From Elusimicrobiota bacterium (GTDB lineage: Bacteria > CG03 > SLGR01 > PWQF01), in contig PWOI01000047.1 in NCBI GenBank assembly GCA_003557485.1, forward strand, positions 1-5,504: a DNA stretch of 5,504 nt, in the 5' to 3' direction. Below the pieces are notes generated by a model. The model saw only the letters and a list, made by a program, of their open reading frames with translations, did no database searches and was not told the DNA's origin. The position numbers and the translations under genes are program-made. Position 1 is the first letter of the stretch, and each line of letters opens with the position of its first letter. This document shows, in pieces, positions 1 to 5,468 of the stretch.

Positions 1-3000
1 AATCCGCAACGCCTTTCAAAGCCAGAAGCCTTCTGGCAAGATTTTTTCCACTGTAAGGAAAACTGACATTAGGAATATATCTTCCGTAGCTGTCTTGGAC
101 TAACTGCGAGGGGCTTGAAGTTATACCGGAAAATGTATCCTCTATGAAATGAACAGCGGGATTTCCGCTTATTCTACCCCAGGCATCCCCAGATATTCCG
201 GAAAATTCTCCCCCTCTCAGATACCCCTCGACTTTTGGGGTTTTGGAGACCAGAAAAAAAGTTTTATCAACCTTATTATTTACTTTTCTTTTAAAACCGT
301 CTAAAAAAGAGCCGTATATTCCCACATCCACAAGCATAAGATTATTTCCCTCAGGAACCCCCACCGTTTCATTCAGGTAATACTGTAAAACATCAGGCGA
401 GGAATTTCTTATAATAGAAGAATTTATATACGCGTATTTAAGATTTCCATCTCTTACAAAAGGGTATCTTTCCGGATATTTCTCAACCATAATCCTAGCC
501 GTAAGATATGAAGAAAGGCCGTCCCTGGCTATAAACAGAACCGTAGTAGGATGACCCTTTTCAAGCTGTTTGTTTAAACCCTTCAATATATTGTCTGCAA
601 AACCCGCCAGCATGGGAGCATATTTATCCATTGAAACCCTATACAGCTTCAACTCTGGAGCCCTTTCGCCCATTTTTTTAACCCCCTCTATCTGTTCAGG
701 GCTATATCCCGCGTCTCCCAGAAAGCTTTCAAAGCTGCTAAGTAAACCTGAAGTGTCTGTATCCAGGTCCTGTTTTATTTCATGGGATGAAAAAAGAAGC
801 CCCACAAAATCAAAGGTATGAAGTAAAAACTCCTGCAATATGTTAGGTACAAAAAATCTGTTCAGCAGAATATGGCCCTGCTCGTGGAAATCTACCGCAG
901 AATGAAGGATATGTCCCGGCTCAAGGTGGTTAATCCAGCCGGACGGGATAGGTTCACCGGCTACATCCCGGCCGTAAAGAAGCGCCTTAGCCCCATTCCA
1001 GGCAGCAAACGAAACCCCTGCCGGGGCAACTGCAAGAGTCCACGGCGAAACAAATATGGCCGAAACAATACCCGCCGCAGCCAGGCCTGACCATAACGCC
1101 ATCGTTGTGAGGGCCCCGGATACGGAAGATTCCTGTCTTCCGGTTTCTGCCGGCCCCCGGCTCTTGGCCTCTTCAAAAATTTGCTTTGCATCAATCTGGT
1201 TAGCGTCCTGAACTCTCCCCTGGCTGTAGGTAAATAAACCCGGCTCTTCATTGTTAACGCTGACAAGCAAATAGGCTTTGCCGTCACTCACCGCCGTATC
1301 AAGGCTTAATTCCAGCTCATTGCCTGTTGCTGCCTTGTAGCTTTTCTTATAGCTCTCTATCAGTAATTCCGACTGCCGGGCAAACTCCTCCGCGCCGGGG
1401 CAACTATCCTGAAGGACGGCAAGCTGCACTACTATTGCGGGAGGAACCCTGTTTTCAAGCAGATACTGCCCGAAAGCCGTACTGACCGCAAGGCGCTCGT
1501 CTATCAGCTCATTGTAGTCCAGTATGTTATCTCCCCTCAAAAAACTGTAGTACCTTTCTATAACTTCTGATGTATGCGAGGTCACCCGGGGCAGAACAAG
1601 GCTGTAGGATATCCCTTTCTCCCTTAACAGCTCCGCTATCCCGTCGCTGTGGAATCCTCCCGCAACCATAACCGAGACCTTCCCGTTTTCAGGGGCCCGG
1701 GAGGCGAAATTCTCCACAAAGTATATGTCCCTCTCTTTGGCTCCCTCGTAAAACTGCCTCATCTCATCAACATACGGCGCAAGCGCCCTCAATAGCGAGT
1801 CTATACTCCTCATCCTGTCTCCGTAAACAGGCACAAGCCTACGGTACGCACCGCTGAACTCACCGGTTCCCCCGAGAAACTCTTCAAGCTCCTCACGGGT
1901 CACCTGGTTCAGTAAAAACTTAACCAGAAGCTGGCTGTAATCGGCTACAACAAGAAGGTCCCTCTCCCTGTCGCTTCGGGCAAGAGATGCGGATACGGCA
2001 TCTATTACCTTTTTCTCCTCCTGCACAACACTGTAGGTGTTTATCTGCTGCATTGCCTGCATGGCTTCTATGTAATCGCGCAGGTTTGAATAGCTGCGAG
2101 AGGAATATATCTCCCTTATAAGCTTGCTGTAGACAGGCCCGGGGGAGCGGAATATGTCCCTGAAACGCCCGAAGACTCCCTCGCCGGAAGGCATAACGCT
2201 TTCTATAAGCCGCTCGTACTCTCTCTGGACCCTGTTTTCGTTTATCCCGGCTGCCTTCTCCGAGACCCTCATATACCCGGCATATTCCGCCGATATATCT
2301 GATATGGATATCCCCGCCCGGCCGGCCCACTGCCTAAGGTAGCCGTGAAACCTCTCGGCGCTTAACTCGCCGCGCCGGTAAAGAAAATACTGGCTCCGGA
2401 AACGCCTTAAATCAGAAGAGTATTCCCTCCCCTCAAGGTCCCTTACAAGCCTGCTTAAATCCTCAAGAAGCTTTACCGTCTCAGGCCTGCGGTTAAGCGA
2501 CGACAAAAGAAGCTCAAGGTCCCTATCGTAAAGCTCCTCGTTCTCTATTCCCAGTAAAACCGGCTCCGGGCCGTTCATCACGCTGTAGCCCTCGGGACCC
2601 CTGACAAGCCCCTGCCTCATAAAATAGTCAAGCACACGCTCCTTTACTCTCTCATCGGGTATTGTTGACATTATGGATGTGTCTATTATCTTTCCGGCCG
2701 GGTCGCCCTCAAGCCCTATAGCCTCTATACCGGCGGTAGTATCTATGGACTCTATTATGTGCTTTATGTTCTTCTGCACCTCGTAGTTGACGTGCAGGTC
2801 TTTTATCAGGACAAGGCGCGGGCCGGTCCCTCGGGGGTCGTACTCCTCAACCACCTGTCCCAGCGATACAGGTATGTCCAGAACCGCAACCGCAACCGGA
2901 GGAGAGAGGTACTGCGCGTAGGCATAGTCGTTTATTACAGAAGTGAAGACCATTCCCGCCGTTATCACCCAGCAGATTATTTTTGTGTATATACTTGATG

Positions 3001-3010
3001 CAAACTTCAT
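1..3010 (-). CDS. Large exported multidomain protein, 3' end outside window (at least 1003 residues)
   Basis: One minus-strand frame stays open from the ATG at 3010 to the window edge without a stop. Residues 1-32 form a Sec signal peptide (MKFASSIYTK, hydrophobic core, likely cleavage after AYA). Residues 66-82 carry LVLIKDLHVNYEVQKNI and residues 447-457 carry VMVAGGFHSDG. An early D-x-H...Q and a late GGFH..G recall the ChaN/TraB/erythromycin-esterase group; this assignment is inference. From memory the same pattern occurs in long Omnitrophica proteins. A hydrophobic stretch lies at about 634-680 and HEQGH (an HExxH pattern) at 709-713. A C-terminal module has FIARDG at 826-831 and LVDVG..GS at about 893-901, resembling the second half of some HAD-like proteins in polysaccharide clusters. 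The start overlaps the upstream stop as ATGA; only a weak AAGG lies 12 bases upstream, so translational coupling is likely. The coding frame is secure, but the function is unknown. Confidence 0.9.
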   Translation of the reverse strand, partial: MKFASSIYTKIICWVITAGMVFTSVINDYAYAQYLSPPVAVAVLDIPVSLGQVVEEYDPRGTGPRLVLIKDLHVNYEVQKNIKHIIESIDTTAGIEAIGLEGDPAGKIIDTSIMSTIPDERVKERVLDYFMRQGLVRGPEGYSVMNGPEPVLLGIENEELYDRDLELLLSSLNRRPETVKLLEDLSRLVRDLEGREYSSDLRRFRSQYFLYRRGELSAERFHGYLRQWAGRAGISISDISAEYAGYMRVSEKAAGINENRVQREYERLIESVMPSGEGVFGRFRDIFRSPGPVYSKLIREIYSSRSYSNLRDYIEAMQAMQQINTYSVVQEEKKVIDAVSASLARSDRERDLLVVADYSQLLVKFLLNQVTREELEEFLGGTGEFSGAYRRLVPVYGDRMRSIDSLLRALAPYVDEMRQFYEGAKERDIYFVENFASRAPENGKVSVMVAGGFHSDGIAELLREKGISYSLVLPRVTSHTSEVIERYYSFLRGDNILDYNELIDERLAVSTAFGQYLLENRVPPAIVVQLAVLQDSCPGAEEFARQSELLIESYKKSYKAATGNELELSLDTAVSDGKAYLLVSVNNEEPGLFTYSQGRVQDANQIDAKQIFEEAKSRGPAETGRQESSVSGALTTMALWSGLAAAGIVSAIFVSPWTLAVAPAGVSFAAWNGAKALLYGRDVAGEPIPSGWINHLEPGHILHSAVDFHEQGHILLNRFFVPNILQEFLLHTFDFVGLLFSSHEIKQDLDTDTSGLLSSFESFLGDAGYSPEQIEGVKKMGERAPELKLYRVSMDKYAPMLAGFADNILKGLNKQLEKGHPTTVLFIARDGLSSYLTARIMVEKYPERYPFVRDGNLKYAYINSSIIRNSSPDVLQYYLNETVGVPEGNNLMLVDVGIYGSFLDGFKRKVNNKVDKTFFLVSKTPKVEGYLRGGEFSGISGDAWGRISGNPAVHFIEDTFSGITSSPSQLVQDSYGRYIPNVSFPYSGKNLARRLLALKGVAD

Positions 3011-3564
3011 AATGACGGGCCGCCTTGATAGGCAATAAAAAAACCCGCGTTATCTGATGATTTAAACGCGGGTTTAAGAAAACCTCTATAACCGTAAACA
3101 GGGTCTATGTCAAACCTCTCCGAAAGATTTCTTATGATCTTCTGAAAGGGAGACAGGAACTCTAAAAACCAGCTCCTGTAATAACAGAGGCGGCTCTCGC
3201 CCCCGGAAGGTTCTGCCCGGAAAGTTCTCTTTGAATCCGAAAACCCCGCAACGGCAAAAAAGAATGCCCAGATAACAATAACAAGAAAAGAACTGCCGGA
3301 CGAAGAGACAATCCCCGAAAGAAAAAGAAGATCCTCAACCGGACGGCGGCTATCGGATTCTGCGCCGGGATCATCCTGCTCCATACCGGTGGAGGCCCTG
3401 TTTATATCTATCTCAGCAGAGGAGACCGCCAGGGATTCCATAAGGGTGCCGTAAAAACTGCCCGCCCCTTCACTGACCTGGAAGAACCCGGCAAGAAAAG
3501 TAAAGATAAATACTGCCGCAAGCAGCACTGCCAAACCATTTCTGTTTTTGCTTTTTTTATACAT
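3007..3564 (-). CDS. Membrane protein of unknown function, 185 residues, coupled to the large exported protein
   Basis: I do not recognise a family. The ATG at 3564 has a good ribosome binding site, AGGAAAG at 3574-3580, nine bases upstream. Residues 2-9 are basic (KKSKNR) and lead into a hydrophobic segment at about 11-29, either an anchor or an uncleaved signal. A polar, acidic loop follows at about 30-88 (EIDINRAS, EQDDPGAESD), then a second membrane segment at about 91-107 (FLVIVIWAFFFAVAGF). The C-terminal 78 residues are soluble and start with SKR, so by the positive-inside rule both ends should be cytoplasmic. The stop overlaps the start of the large gene as ATGA, which suggests that the two proteins act together. 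The last 22 codons run through a terminator hairpin, so the C-terminus may be a late read-through extension. An array of 11-bp repeats lies upstream. The frame is likely real, but conservation is untested. Confidence 0.75.
   Translation of the reverse strand: MYKKSKNRNGLAVLLAAVFIFTFLAGFFQVSEGAGSFYGTLMESLAVSSAEIDINRASTGMEQDDPGAESDSRRPVEDLLFLSGIVSSSGSSFLVIVIWAFFFAVAGFSDSKRTFRAEPSGGESRLCYYRSWFLEFLSPFQKIIRNLSERFDIDPVYGYRGFLKPAFKSSDNAGFFIAYQGGPSL
3034..3075 (-). terminator. Intrinsic terminator embedded in the 3' end of the 185-residue gene
   Basis: On the minus strand a perfect 11-bp stem (AAACCCGCGTT with AACGCGGGTTT, arms 3065-3075 and 3041-3051) encloses a 13-base loop. It is followed by an uninterrupted run of seven T (3043-3037, the first three in the stem), then ATT. 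There is no T-run on the other side, so it works only leftward. It lies within codons 164-175 of the 185-residue gene and ends 26 bases before the ATG of the large gene. A terminator inside an intact frame suggests attenuation or partial read-through into the large gene. Confidence 0.8.
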
Positions 3565-3582: not shown

Positions 3583-3643
3583 CTATTAGAATACGGTTTC
3601 GATATAAAATATATGTGAAATCATTATGAAATATATATGAAAC
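3583..3643 (-). promoter_or_regulatory. Promoter region with four 11-bp direct repeats (Pho-box-like array B)
   Basis: Read on the minus strand, four consecutive 11-base units fill 3643-3600. Their cores are TTTCATA, TTTCATA, TTTCACA and TTTTATA, starting at 3642, 3631, 3620 and 3609, an exact 11-base period. The variable four-base parts are mostly A/T. A weak -10 follows: TATTCT at 3588-3593 or TCTAAT at 3585-3590. The array sits 35 bases before the ATG of the 185-residue gene. Direct repeats at 11 bp are the known layout for PhoB and OmpR-family regulators, which stack head to tail on one DNA face. The regulator is inferred; the repeat is directly visible. Confidence 0.6.
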
Positions 3644-3653
3644 CTATTTAACC

Positions 3654-4796
3654 TTACCTCTGATAGTGGTTTGCCTCAAAAACCATAAACCGTCTTCTAA
3701 GGGCTGCAACTTCTTCCAAATCAGGTTTCCTCTCATCCGCAATATTCAAACCTATAGTTGCCACCGCCATCCCGTGTGAATACAGCTCCACTGTGAGGTC
3801 TTTTTCTATCCAGCGCCCTATGAGCCTGCCTTTCTCATAGTAGAACTTTTCTTCCACCTTTCCCTCATAGGTTACATAAGCGGGACGCCCGTGGTTGTAC
3901 CAGGTTATCATATCCGTTTCCAATTCCCTGCTGTAAACAAGGCGGCTGCCGACCCATTTAAACTCCGTGACAATATTTCCCGCCATATCAACTGAATATA
4001 ATTGCCTGCCGTCCTCATAAAAAGTAATTATTTCACTCTCCTCGTTCTTAACAGATTTAAGGGCAGTAAAACCCCGGTCATTTTTCCCGTAATTGTAGGT
4101 TGCAATAAGGCGGCCGTACCTGTTATATGTTTCGGACATCTGCCCGTCTTTATTGAAATAGGTAACATTACTGTAAGCGTCAGTCCTGCTCAACAGACGA
4201 CCGGTATCGTCATCATATGAATACCTGGCTACTTCGTTTCCTTCAAAATCCAGTTCCTTGACTGCCCTACCCCGCTCGTCATGGACAGTTCTTGACATTG
4301 TAAGCTCATCCACTGTTAAAGTCGCTATCTTGCCGTACTCGTTATACTCAACGCTTCTGACAAGGTTGTTTTCTGTATCGTACTCGGCTACAAGTTTCCC
4401 CCCGTAGCCGTACTCTTCGTAGGCGAGAGTCTCCTGCCGTTCGTTCTCAACTCTGACCCGGCTGGTACCGGCTTCCCTGACCCATCTTTTCTCTATTTCA
4501 CCGTCCTCGCCCCTGTGGTGCTCGCGCCTGCCCCCTATACTGAAAGTCATCTCTCCGGCAGTATCTATATTAACCATAACTTCCCCCCGGGAGGTGGTAA
4601 GCATAACGTTACCGGACTTATCCCTTACAACAAGGGGACGGCCGGGAGTTATCTCAACAAGACTCTCGGACCTCTGGAAAACAGACTCGTCCATCCTGTA
4701 TATGCTTGAAGGGTAAAATGAGTAGGGGTCGCCGGCTTCTGCGCCGGCGCATATAAAAACAGTTATAATCGTGATAAGCAGAACAATCTTCTTCAT
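3654..4796 (-). CDS. Exported YD-repeat (RHS-like) protein, 380 residues
   Basis: The ATG at 4796 follows AGGGG (4803-4807) by six bases. Residues 1-21 are a Sec signal peptide (MKK, IVLLITIITVFI, likely cleavage after AEA), so the mature protein is periplasmic or external. From about residue 126 to 345 the protein is built of degenerate repeats of roughly 20 residues of the YD type: YGYGGKLVAEYD, YNEYGKIATL, HDERGRAVKELD, YDDDTGRLLSRTD, YNRYGRLIATYNY, YEDGRQLYSVD, YYEKGRLIGRW. Such repeats form beta-strand shells in RHS and teneurin proteins. At 380 residues it is far shorter than typical RHS toxins, and it has neither the RHS core signature nor a separate C-terminal toxin: it ends in a short charged helix (ERKPDLEEVAALRRRF). 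A structural or surface-binding role is more plausible than a toxin. It has its own promoter with a repeat array. Confidence 0.9.
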   Translation of the reverse strand: MKKIVLLITIITVFICAGAEAGDPYSFYPSSIYRMDESVFQRSESLVEITPGRPLVVRDKSGNVMLTTSRGEVMVNIDTAGEMTFSIGGRREHHRGEDGEIEKRWVREAGTSRVRVENERQETLAYEEYGYGGKLVAEYDTENNLVRSVEYNEYGKIATLTVDELTMSRTVHDERGRAVKELDFEGNEVARYSYDDDTGRLLSRTDAYSNVTYFNKDGQMSETYNRYGRLIATYNYGKNDRGFTALKSVKNEESEIITFYEDGRQLYSVDMAGNIVTEFKWVGSRLVYSRELETDMITWYNHGRPAYVTYEGKVEEKFYYEKGRLIGRWIEKDLTVELYSHGMAVATIGLNIADERKPDLEEVAALRRRFMVFEANHYQR

Positions 4797-4825: not shown

Positions 4826-4831
4826 ATTATA
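4826..4831 (-). promoter_or_regulatory. -10 box (TATAAT) for the YD-repeat gene
   Basis: A perfect TATAAT on the minus strand lies 29 bases before the start codon and 16 bases after the TTTCA core of the nearest upstream repeat unit. No good TTGACA is present; the repeat unit covers the approximate -35 position, as expected for a promoter that needs an activator. The leader should be about 20-25 bases. Confidence 0.6.
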
Positions 4832-4842
4832 GAGTACTGTAT

Positions 4843-4886
4843 AAAAATGAAATATATTGGAAAGCTATGTGAAAGGAGTGTGAAAC
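4843..4886 (-). promoter_or_regulatory. Four 11-bp direct repeats (Pho-box-like array A)
   Basis: On the minus strand four abutting 11-base units have cores TTTCACA, TTTCACA, TTTCCAA and TTTCATT, starting at 4885, 4874, 4863 and 4852, an exact 11-base period. The first unit begins GTTTCA, just as in array B. The E. coli Pho box consists of 11-base units of CTGTCAT plus four A/T-rich bases, so period and core are similar though not identical. The array lies between the terminator at 4910-4938 and the TATAAT at 4826-4831, a good place for an activator. Control by a PhoB/OmpR-type regulator is inference. Confidence 0.65.
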
Positions 4887-4909: not shown

Positions 4910-4938
4910 AAAAAAAGCGCCCGGCAGAAACCGGGCAC
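4910..4938 (-). terminator. Intrinsic terminator of the small exported-protein gene
   Basis: On the minus strand GTGCCCGG (4938-4931) pairs with CCGGGCGC (4924-4917) around a six-base loop, giving eight pairs with one G-T wobble. A run of seven T (4916-4910) follows directly. It lies 33 bases after the stop of the 124-residue gene and separates that gene from the YD-repeat transcription unit. Confidence 0.85.
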
Positions 4939-4955
4939 CTTAAAGAAACAGTGTT

Positions 4956-5391: not shown

Positions 5392-5419
5392 ATTATACTA
5401 AGAAAAACCCCGGGTTCAA
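5392..5419 (-). promoter_or_regulatory. Sigma-70-type promoter of the 124-residue gene, overlapping a terminator stem
   Basis: On the minus strand TTGAAC (5419-5414) and TATAAT (5397-5392) are separated by 16 bases. The -10 is perfect and the -35 matches at four of six positions. The -35 lies in the second arm and loop edge of the terminator hairpin at 5407-5439, so one DNA segment seems to serve as both terminator and promoter. No 11-bp TTTCA array is present here. Confidence 0.6.
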
Positions 5420-5439
5420 GCCAAGCCTGAACCCGGGGT
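5403..5439 (-). terminator. Strong intrinsic terminator after the gene at the right edge
   Basis: A perfect 12-bp GC-rich stem (ACCCCGGGTTCA, 5407-5418, with TGAACCCGGGGT, 5428-5439) encloses a nine-base loop. On the minus strand it is followed by five T (5407-5403, the first in the stem) and CTT. On the plus side CTGTTTTCTC follows, so weak rightward activity is possible, but no plus-strand gene approaches it. Confidence 0.8.
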
Positions 5440-5468
5440 CTGTTTTCTCTAAGCCTCCGCTCAGTTTC

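Follow-up and report, generated by a model that had tools for sequence, protein, structure and literature searches.

A four-unit array of 11-bp direct repeats, located upstream of a gene encoding a 185-amino-acid protein, belongs to a promoter module that recurs in related genera. The sequence comparisons show a real, conserved regulatory module of known architecture, for which a convincing candidate regulator can be named. Probably, an OmpR/PhoB-type regulator encoded in a conserved four-gene operon (contig C114) binds these arrays as tandem dimers, filling the position of the absent -35 element, and activates genes for exported and giant proteins. The window analysed is the whole stretch of 5,504 bp, which is the complete contig C144 of genome G000 (assembly of 2.07 Mb, 212 contigs, 86.6% complete); genome-wide scans were carried out as pattern searches.

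The array and its sister

The proposed operator (3605..3642, reverse strand), delineated by pattern search, shuffles and a sequence logo, reads TTTCAtatataTTTCAtaatgaTTTCAcatataTTTTA from 3642 to 3605 and comprises four TTTCA-N6 units with a period of 11. The cores are situated at 3642-3638, 3631-3627, 3620-3616 and 3609-3605, and 19 of their 20 bases match, the single mismatch being in unit 4 (TTTTA). A sister array of four units upstream of the YD-repeat gene (4885-4848, reverse strand; 4848..4885) reads TTTCAcactccTTTCAcatagcTTTCCaatataTTTCA and likewise matches at 19 of 20 core bases, with TTTCC as unit 3. The two arrays are separated by 1,243 bp, each is directly preceded by a G, and a repeat search of the window grouped both into one family of period 11. 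The sequence-only reading of this DNA, which had described a second four-unit array of matching core, period and strand about 1.2 kb away, both arrays starting with GTTTCA, was thus accurate. Its judgement that such a pair is unlikely by chance also held: 150 first-order Markov copies of the window and 3,000 copies of the gap with the array at 3605..3642 reached 4 mismatches at best, compared with the 1 observed.

The gaps of the window are AT-rich, the one feature that would favour a chance or compositional pattern, and similar TTTCA spacing in AT-rich gaps without promoters had been named beforehand as the mark of a compositional signal. Such spacing was searched for across the whole 2.07-Mb assembly. 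A three-unit pattern with at most one mismatch gave 11 matches in six places and none in the reversed control, and the four-unit pattern with at most three mismatches gave 12 matches against 0 in the reversed control. When the -10 hexamer was included in the pattern, seven sites were found at no more than one mismatch, beyond which only shifted registers and background appeared. All seven sites are promoter-like, with 20-50 nt between the -10 and a plausible start codon in six of them and 128 nt in the seventh (C126). Because the sites in the assembly are few and promoter-like and the reversed control is empty, a compositional signal was not found. Together with the shuffles, the matrix null, the fixed -10 distance and the conservation across genera (see below), this confirms that the four-unit array is real and excludes chance and base composition, whose probability as an explanation is practically nil.

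Anatomy of the promoter module

The functional module reaches beyond the array. Unit 4 is followed by a spacer of exactly 11 nt, TATCGAAACCG (3604-3594, reverse strand; 3594..3604), and then by a -10 hexamer, TATTCT (3593-3588; 3588..3593), with a conserved G before it; the sister promoter carries its -10 hexamer, TACTCT (4831..4836, reverse strand), 11 nt past its own unit 4. Of 31 arrays gathered across the phylum, counting two from G032, which lies outside it, 26 have a TANNNT hexamer that starts exactly 11 nt past the last core; none of 12 background arrays does. The logo from 29 sites displays four units and no more, units 1 and 2 being TTTCACA and units 3 and 4 TTTCA, followed by 11 nt with a terminal G and then TATAAT-like bases. 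With a position matrix derived from these sites, nearly all of them score 35-59 bits, and 1 Mb of first-order random sequence yields 0.5 at best. The array promoters show no evident sigma70 -35 hexamer, and the array sits where it would be.

This layout agrees with that of OmpR/PhoB-family operators: four head-to-tail direct repeats spaced by about one helical turn (period 11), at a fixed position beside a sigma70-type -10 without a separate -35, and a full-length regulator with receiver and Trans_reg_C domains linked to the sites. Members of this family bind direct repeats as head-to-tail tandem dimers (PMC4832192). In Escherichia coli, the half-sites of PhoB contain TGTCA tracts 6 bp apart (PMC6194859), and the pho box usually stands in for the -35 region (PMC4971064). 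The present array resembles this box in its direct repeats, its core tracts 6 bp apart, its 11-bp period (PMC6194859) and its position near the -10 in replacement of the -35 (PMC6194859; PMC4971064). The PhoP protein of Mycobacterium tuberculosis recognises TCACAGC repeats with a 4-bp spacer and binds sites of three or four motifs with higher affinity (PMC4832192), and for mycobacterial MtrA the operator consists of GTCACAgcg direct repeats (quoted in PMC13189361). With the PhoP operator our array shares the 11-bp period and, in the TTTCACA of units 1 and 2, the TCACA sequence (PMC4832192); as far as the motif quoted in PMC13189361 goes, TCACA is also common to the MtrA operator, and MtrA is the best PDB match of the C114 regulator. 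Orthology of that regulator to MtrA or PhoP is nevertheless not supported, its score on the NCBIfam MtrA model being 200 against a cut-off of 300, and the system differs from actinobacterial PhoP and MtrA in its distant lineage, its GGDEF and extra receiver partners and its targets.

We propose that the array serves as operator in an activated promoter of class-II type. Two head-to-tail dimers of an OmpR/PhoB-family regulator would line up along one helical face over the four repeats, take the place of the missing -35 and recruit RNA polymerase to the -10, which lies at a constant 11 nt downstream. The same regulator might instead repress, its occupancy of the -35 position blocking polymerase. 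The array does overlap that position, and OmpR/PhoB-type regulators can repress, an example being PhoB at the -10 region of phoB (PMC6194859); yet these promoters have no -35 hexamer of their own to block, and the constant 11-nt distance to a good -10 matches the way activated pho promoters are laid out, which makes repression distinctly improbable.

Distribution of the module

Among 61 genomes, matches to the four-unit pattern are concentrated in G000 (6), G003 (8) and G005 (15); G002 adds a single good site and G013 a single perfect one. Across 290 genomes, the full 55-bp signature with at most three mismatches occurs seven times in G000, three times in G002, seven times in G003 and 18 times in G005; the remaining genomes have 0-3 each, near the control level, some of those in G032 being promoter-like. 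A relaxed pattern of two units plus TANNNT is enriched over its control in the same four genomes (22 versus 4 in G000, 18 versus 6 in G002, 10 versus 2 in G003 and 55 versus 19 in G005) and less clearly elsewhere. The expectation that the regulon could be bounded stands, and the regulon is wider than the window, with seven promoters in G000 and about 18 in one relative. The gene encoding a 124-amino-acid protein has a promoter without the array, as had been noted.

Three further observations concern single loci. G032, outside the phylum, contains two four-unit TTTCAC arrays with 11 nt to TACACT (L076 3390 and L077 3459, both reverse strand), and the genes downstream were assigned by eye as PHP-domain-like and CBS-domain-like. 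Array C34 follows an 804-amino-acid protein with GGDEF-like stretches that is cut by the contig end (L012 547-2961, reverse strand). Upstream of the 124-amino-acid gene, a strong terminator-like hairpin (5405-5441, reverse strand) overlaps a promoter-like pair (5419-5392, reverse strand) consisting of TTGAAC, 16 nt and TATAAT.

Gene neighbourhood and its conservation

The three genes of the window described here lie on the reverse strand. The order in the window is array, YD-repeat gene, array, 185-amino-acid gene and giant gene. The YD/RHS-repeat protein is exported and has 380 amino acids (3654..4796); the 185-amino-acid protein (3007..3564) has an N-terminal hydrophobic segment, and its orthologues in three other genera are encoded downstream of an array; only the start of the giant exported protein is present (2..3010; 1003 amino acids, cut by the contig end). 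The last two genes overlap by ATGA and very likely form one transcription unit. Between the 124-amino-acid gene and the sister array lies a terminator-like hairpin with a T run (4914..4941, reverse strand), which may insulate the sister module.

In G005 the order is array, YD gene, CheY-like gene, weak array, 178-amino-acid gene and giant gene (5,628 codons). In G003 a four-gene operon and one divergent gene are followed by an array, a YD gene and two genes, and then by an array, the YD orthologue, a CheY-like gene, a weak array and a 187-amino-acid gene. G002 has the four-gene operon, an array, a YD gene, a 181-amino-acid gene and an array, after which come a 690-amino-acid gene and the YD orthologue, a CheY-like gene, an array and a 225-amino-acid gene. 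The gap upstream of the 185-amino-acid orthologue scores 37.8 bits on the matrix in G002, 13.1 in G003 and 12.3 in G005, against a null best of 0.5; the two weak-scoring arrays have only two or three clear units. The orthologous gaps of G002, G003 and G005 all carry arrays, and the array is therefore found in this gap across all four genera. The CheY-like gene of G000 is located elsewhere with an array of its own and is 61% identical to its G003 counterpart. Two more genes of the 185-amino-acid type, on contig C42 of G002 and contig C110 of G003, are likewise preceded by an array and have a giant gene downstream. Comparison with relatives, in line with the check that the sequence-only reading had proposed, recovered the same module in orthologous gaps of other genera, and the co-regulation that it had suggested for the YD-repeat, 185-amino-acid membrane and giant proteins is well supported by these gaps and by the ATGA overlap.

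The cassette of a 185-amino-acid-type gene followed by a giant gene recurs at L186, L188, L201, L202 and L203, often behind another large ORF. The gene order suggests that the two proteins work as a pair.

Targets and giant proteins

A hydrophobic N-terminal segment is encoded by 31 of 35 array-driven genes compared with 29 of 73 background ORFs. The array-driven genes encode YD/RHS-repeat proteins, the 185-amino-acid family, giant exported proteins and CheY-like receivers, as well as an FtsH-like protease in G005 and an RND-type efflux operon in G000 (C126). Relatives of the giant protein have open frames of 11,860 codons (G002:C25:33910-35517), 9,931 codons (G002:C42:35916-37511) and 5,628 codons (G005:C41:2575-4521), and the N-terminal region of the family is conserved, with the motifs DLHxNYEVQxNI and GGFH. 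An AlphaFold model of the N-terminal 530 amino acids (pLDDT 75) had no PDB match at E <0.001. Several copies of the giant gene lack an array immediately in front of them; some of these come after a further large ORF and may belong to operons. No array was found before the distant giant-protein relatives of FCPU426, Goldiibacteriota and Firestonebacteria.

The candidate regulator and its operon

Two genes with a Trans_reg_C domain (PF00486) were found in the G000 assembly, and only the one on contig C114 also encodes a receiver domain. Its product, a 231-amino-acid OmpR/PhoB-type protein, would be the likeliest regulator. The operon encodes a HAMP-HisKA-HATPase kinase, a receiver-GGDEF protein, this regulator and an extra receiver protein. 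Orthologues of the regulator in G002, G003 and G005 are 67-73% identical, while other PF00486 proteins in the phylum set reach at most 45%. Within the phylum set of 16 genomes, four alone (G000, G002, G003 and G005) have the operon, and the YD and giant families occur in exactly these four, which are also the ones in which the arrays concentrate. Simple arithmetic gives a probability of 1/1820 for this four-in-four overlap, a figure that is only indicative because the genomes are related and co-occurrence is not independent on the tree. No array precedes the four-gene operon in G003 or G005, and in G000 the operon's own promoter is out of sight because the contig is cut inside the kinase gene. 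That the C114 regulator binds the arrays, that it activates rather than represses and what signal it answers to are matters that we infer.

Alternatively, the arrays could be the operator of another DNA-binding protein, either an unassembled OmpR/PhoB paralogue or a member of a different family, with the four-gene operon a mere neighbour. At 86.6% completeness, another regulator could be missing from the assembly. A different OmpR-type gene in G013, which belongs to another family, has its stop 44 bp before that genome's perfect array and encodes a protein only about 40% identical to the C114 regulator, and the G032 arrays with the same 11-nt distance to a -10 lie outside the phylum. Against this, array-driven genes come right after the operon in all three relatives that have both (G002, G003 and G005, with the one divergent gene between in G003). 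Operon and array-driven genes are also missing together from the order's other genomes. G001 (family of G000), G007 (family of G003 and G005), G004 and G006 have neither the operon nor the YD or giant families. The second PF00486 protein of G000, membrane-anchored and without a receiver, was considered as the regulator and disfavoured, having a recognisable homologue in the array-free G001. We regard another regulator as rather unlikely and the C114 protein as the probable one.

The second PF00486 protein combines an OmpR-type DNA-binding domain with N-terminal membrane segments and is encoded beside V-type ATPase genes in G000 and G001, with a homologue in G003 (L026 6829-7503, L144 3964-4638 and L145 958-1626).

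Relation to phosphate control

If the array were a true Pho box, PhoB would activate the genes of the window under phosphate limitation. In favour of this are the period and the 6-bp spacing between cores, both as in the PhoB site (PMC6194859), and the affiliation of the candidate regulator, which is in the same family as E. coli PhoB and closest to the PhoB model, TIGR02154 being its top-scoring NCBIfam model. Its score of 223 bits is, however, below the curated PhoB equivalog cut-off of 296.2, as is that of the pst-linked regulator of G005 (239 bits). The core is TTTCA(CA) rather than TGTCA, there are typically four units, and no link to pst is seen. The regulon consists of exported and giant proteins, again unlike that of E. 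coli PhoB. The regulator-kinase-porin-pstSCAB-phoU cluster of G005 comes with a regulator of its own and lacks the TTTCA module, and in G000 the PhoU-family matches are two domains of one 569-amino-acid protein, with no stand-alone PhoU.

The gaps of the G005 pst cluster contain instead a TTAAC array with an 11-bp period and 3 mismatches in 20, a quality that none of 60 shuffles equalled (the core having been picked after looking), and a second, weaker copy (L139, G005:C115, 3559-3607 and 3897-3945). This array resembles the TTTCA array in its period and in its similar place upstream of a gene cluster, but differs in its core and linked regulator; two PhoB-type box systems thus seem to coexist in one genome. 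Because the relative's pst cluster has a different box, a phosphate regulon is disfavoured. The phosphate link raised in the sequence-only reading is not supported, phosphate control of the window genes appears unlikely, and a true Pho box is highly improbable. An explanation of the G-to-T change in the core by an N in the recognition helix in place of PhoB Arg201 was also considered and dropped, because the pst-linked G005 regulator has N there as well.

Discussion

While the layout of the operator is of a known type, no description of the two-component circuit or of its targets seems to exist, and a search of the literature for response-regulator arrays of TTTCA with an 11-bp period returned nothing relevant. 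The regulon would comprise exported and membrane proteins peculiar to the lineage, namely YD-repeat proteins, the 185-amino-acid family, the giants and an orphan CheY-like receiver. More tentatively, and with less than even confidence, a circuit containing a c-di-GMP enzyme (the receiver-GGDEF protein) and a second receiver might switch on, through the four-unit operator, a giant-protein surface programme of YD-repeat proteins and exported proteins that reach about 11,800 residues, with feed-forward through the array-driven CheY-like receiver.

To our knowledge, almost nothing is known of the regulation of giant exported proteins in uncultured bacteria. Here the operator is clean, there is one candidate regulator and the list of targets is short, so that the control of such proteins can be tested without culturing the organism; the operator also serves as a tag that picks out uncharacterised proteins likely to act together.
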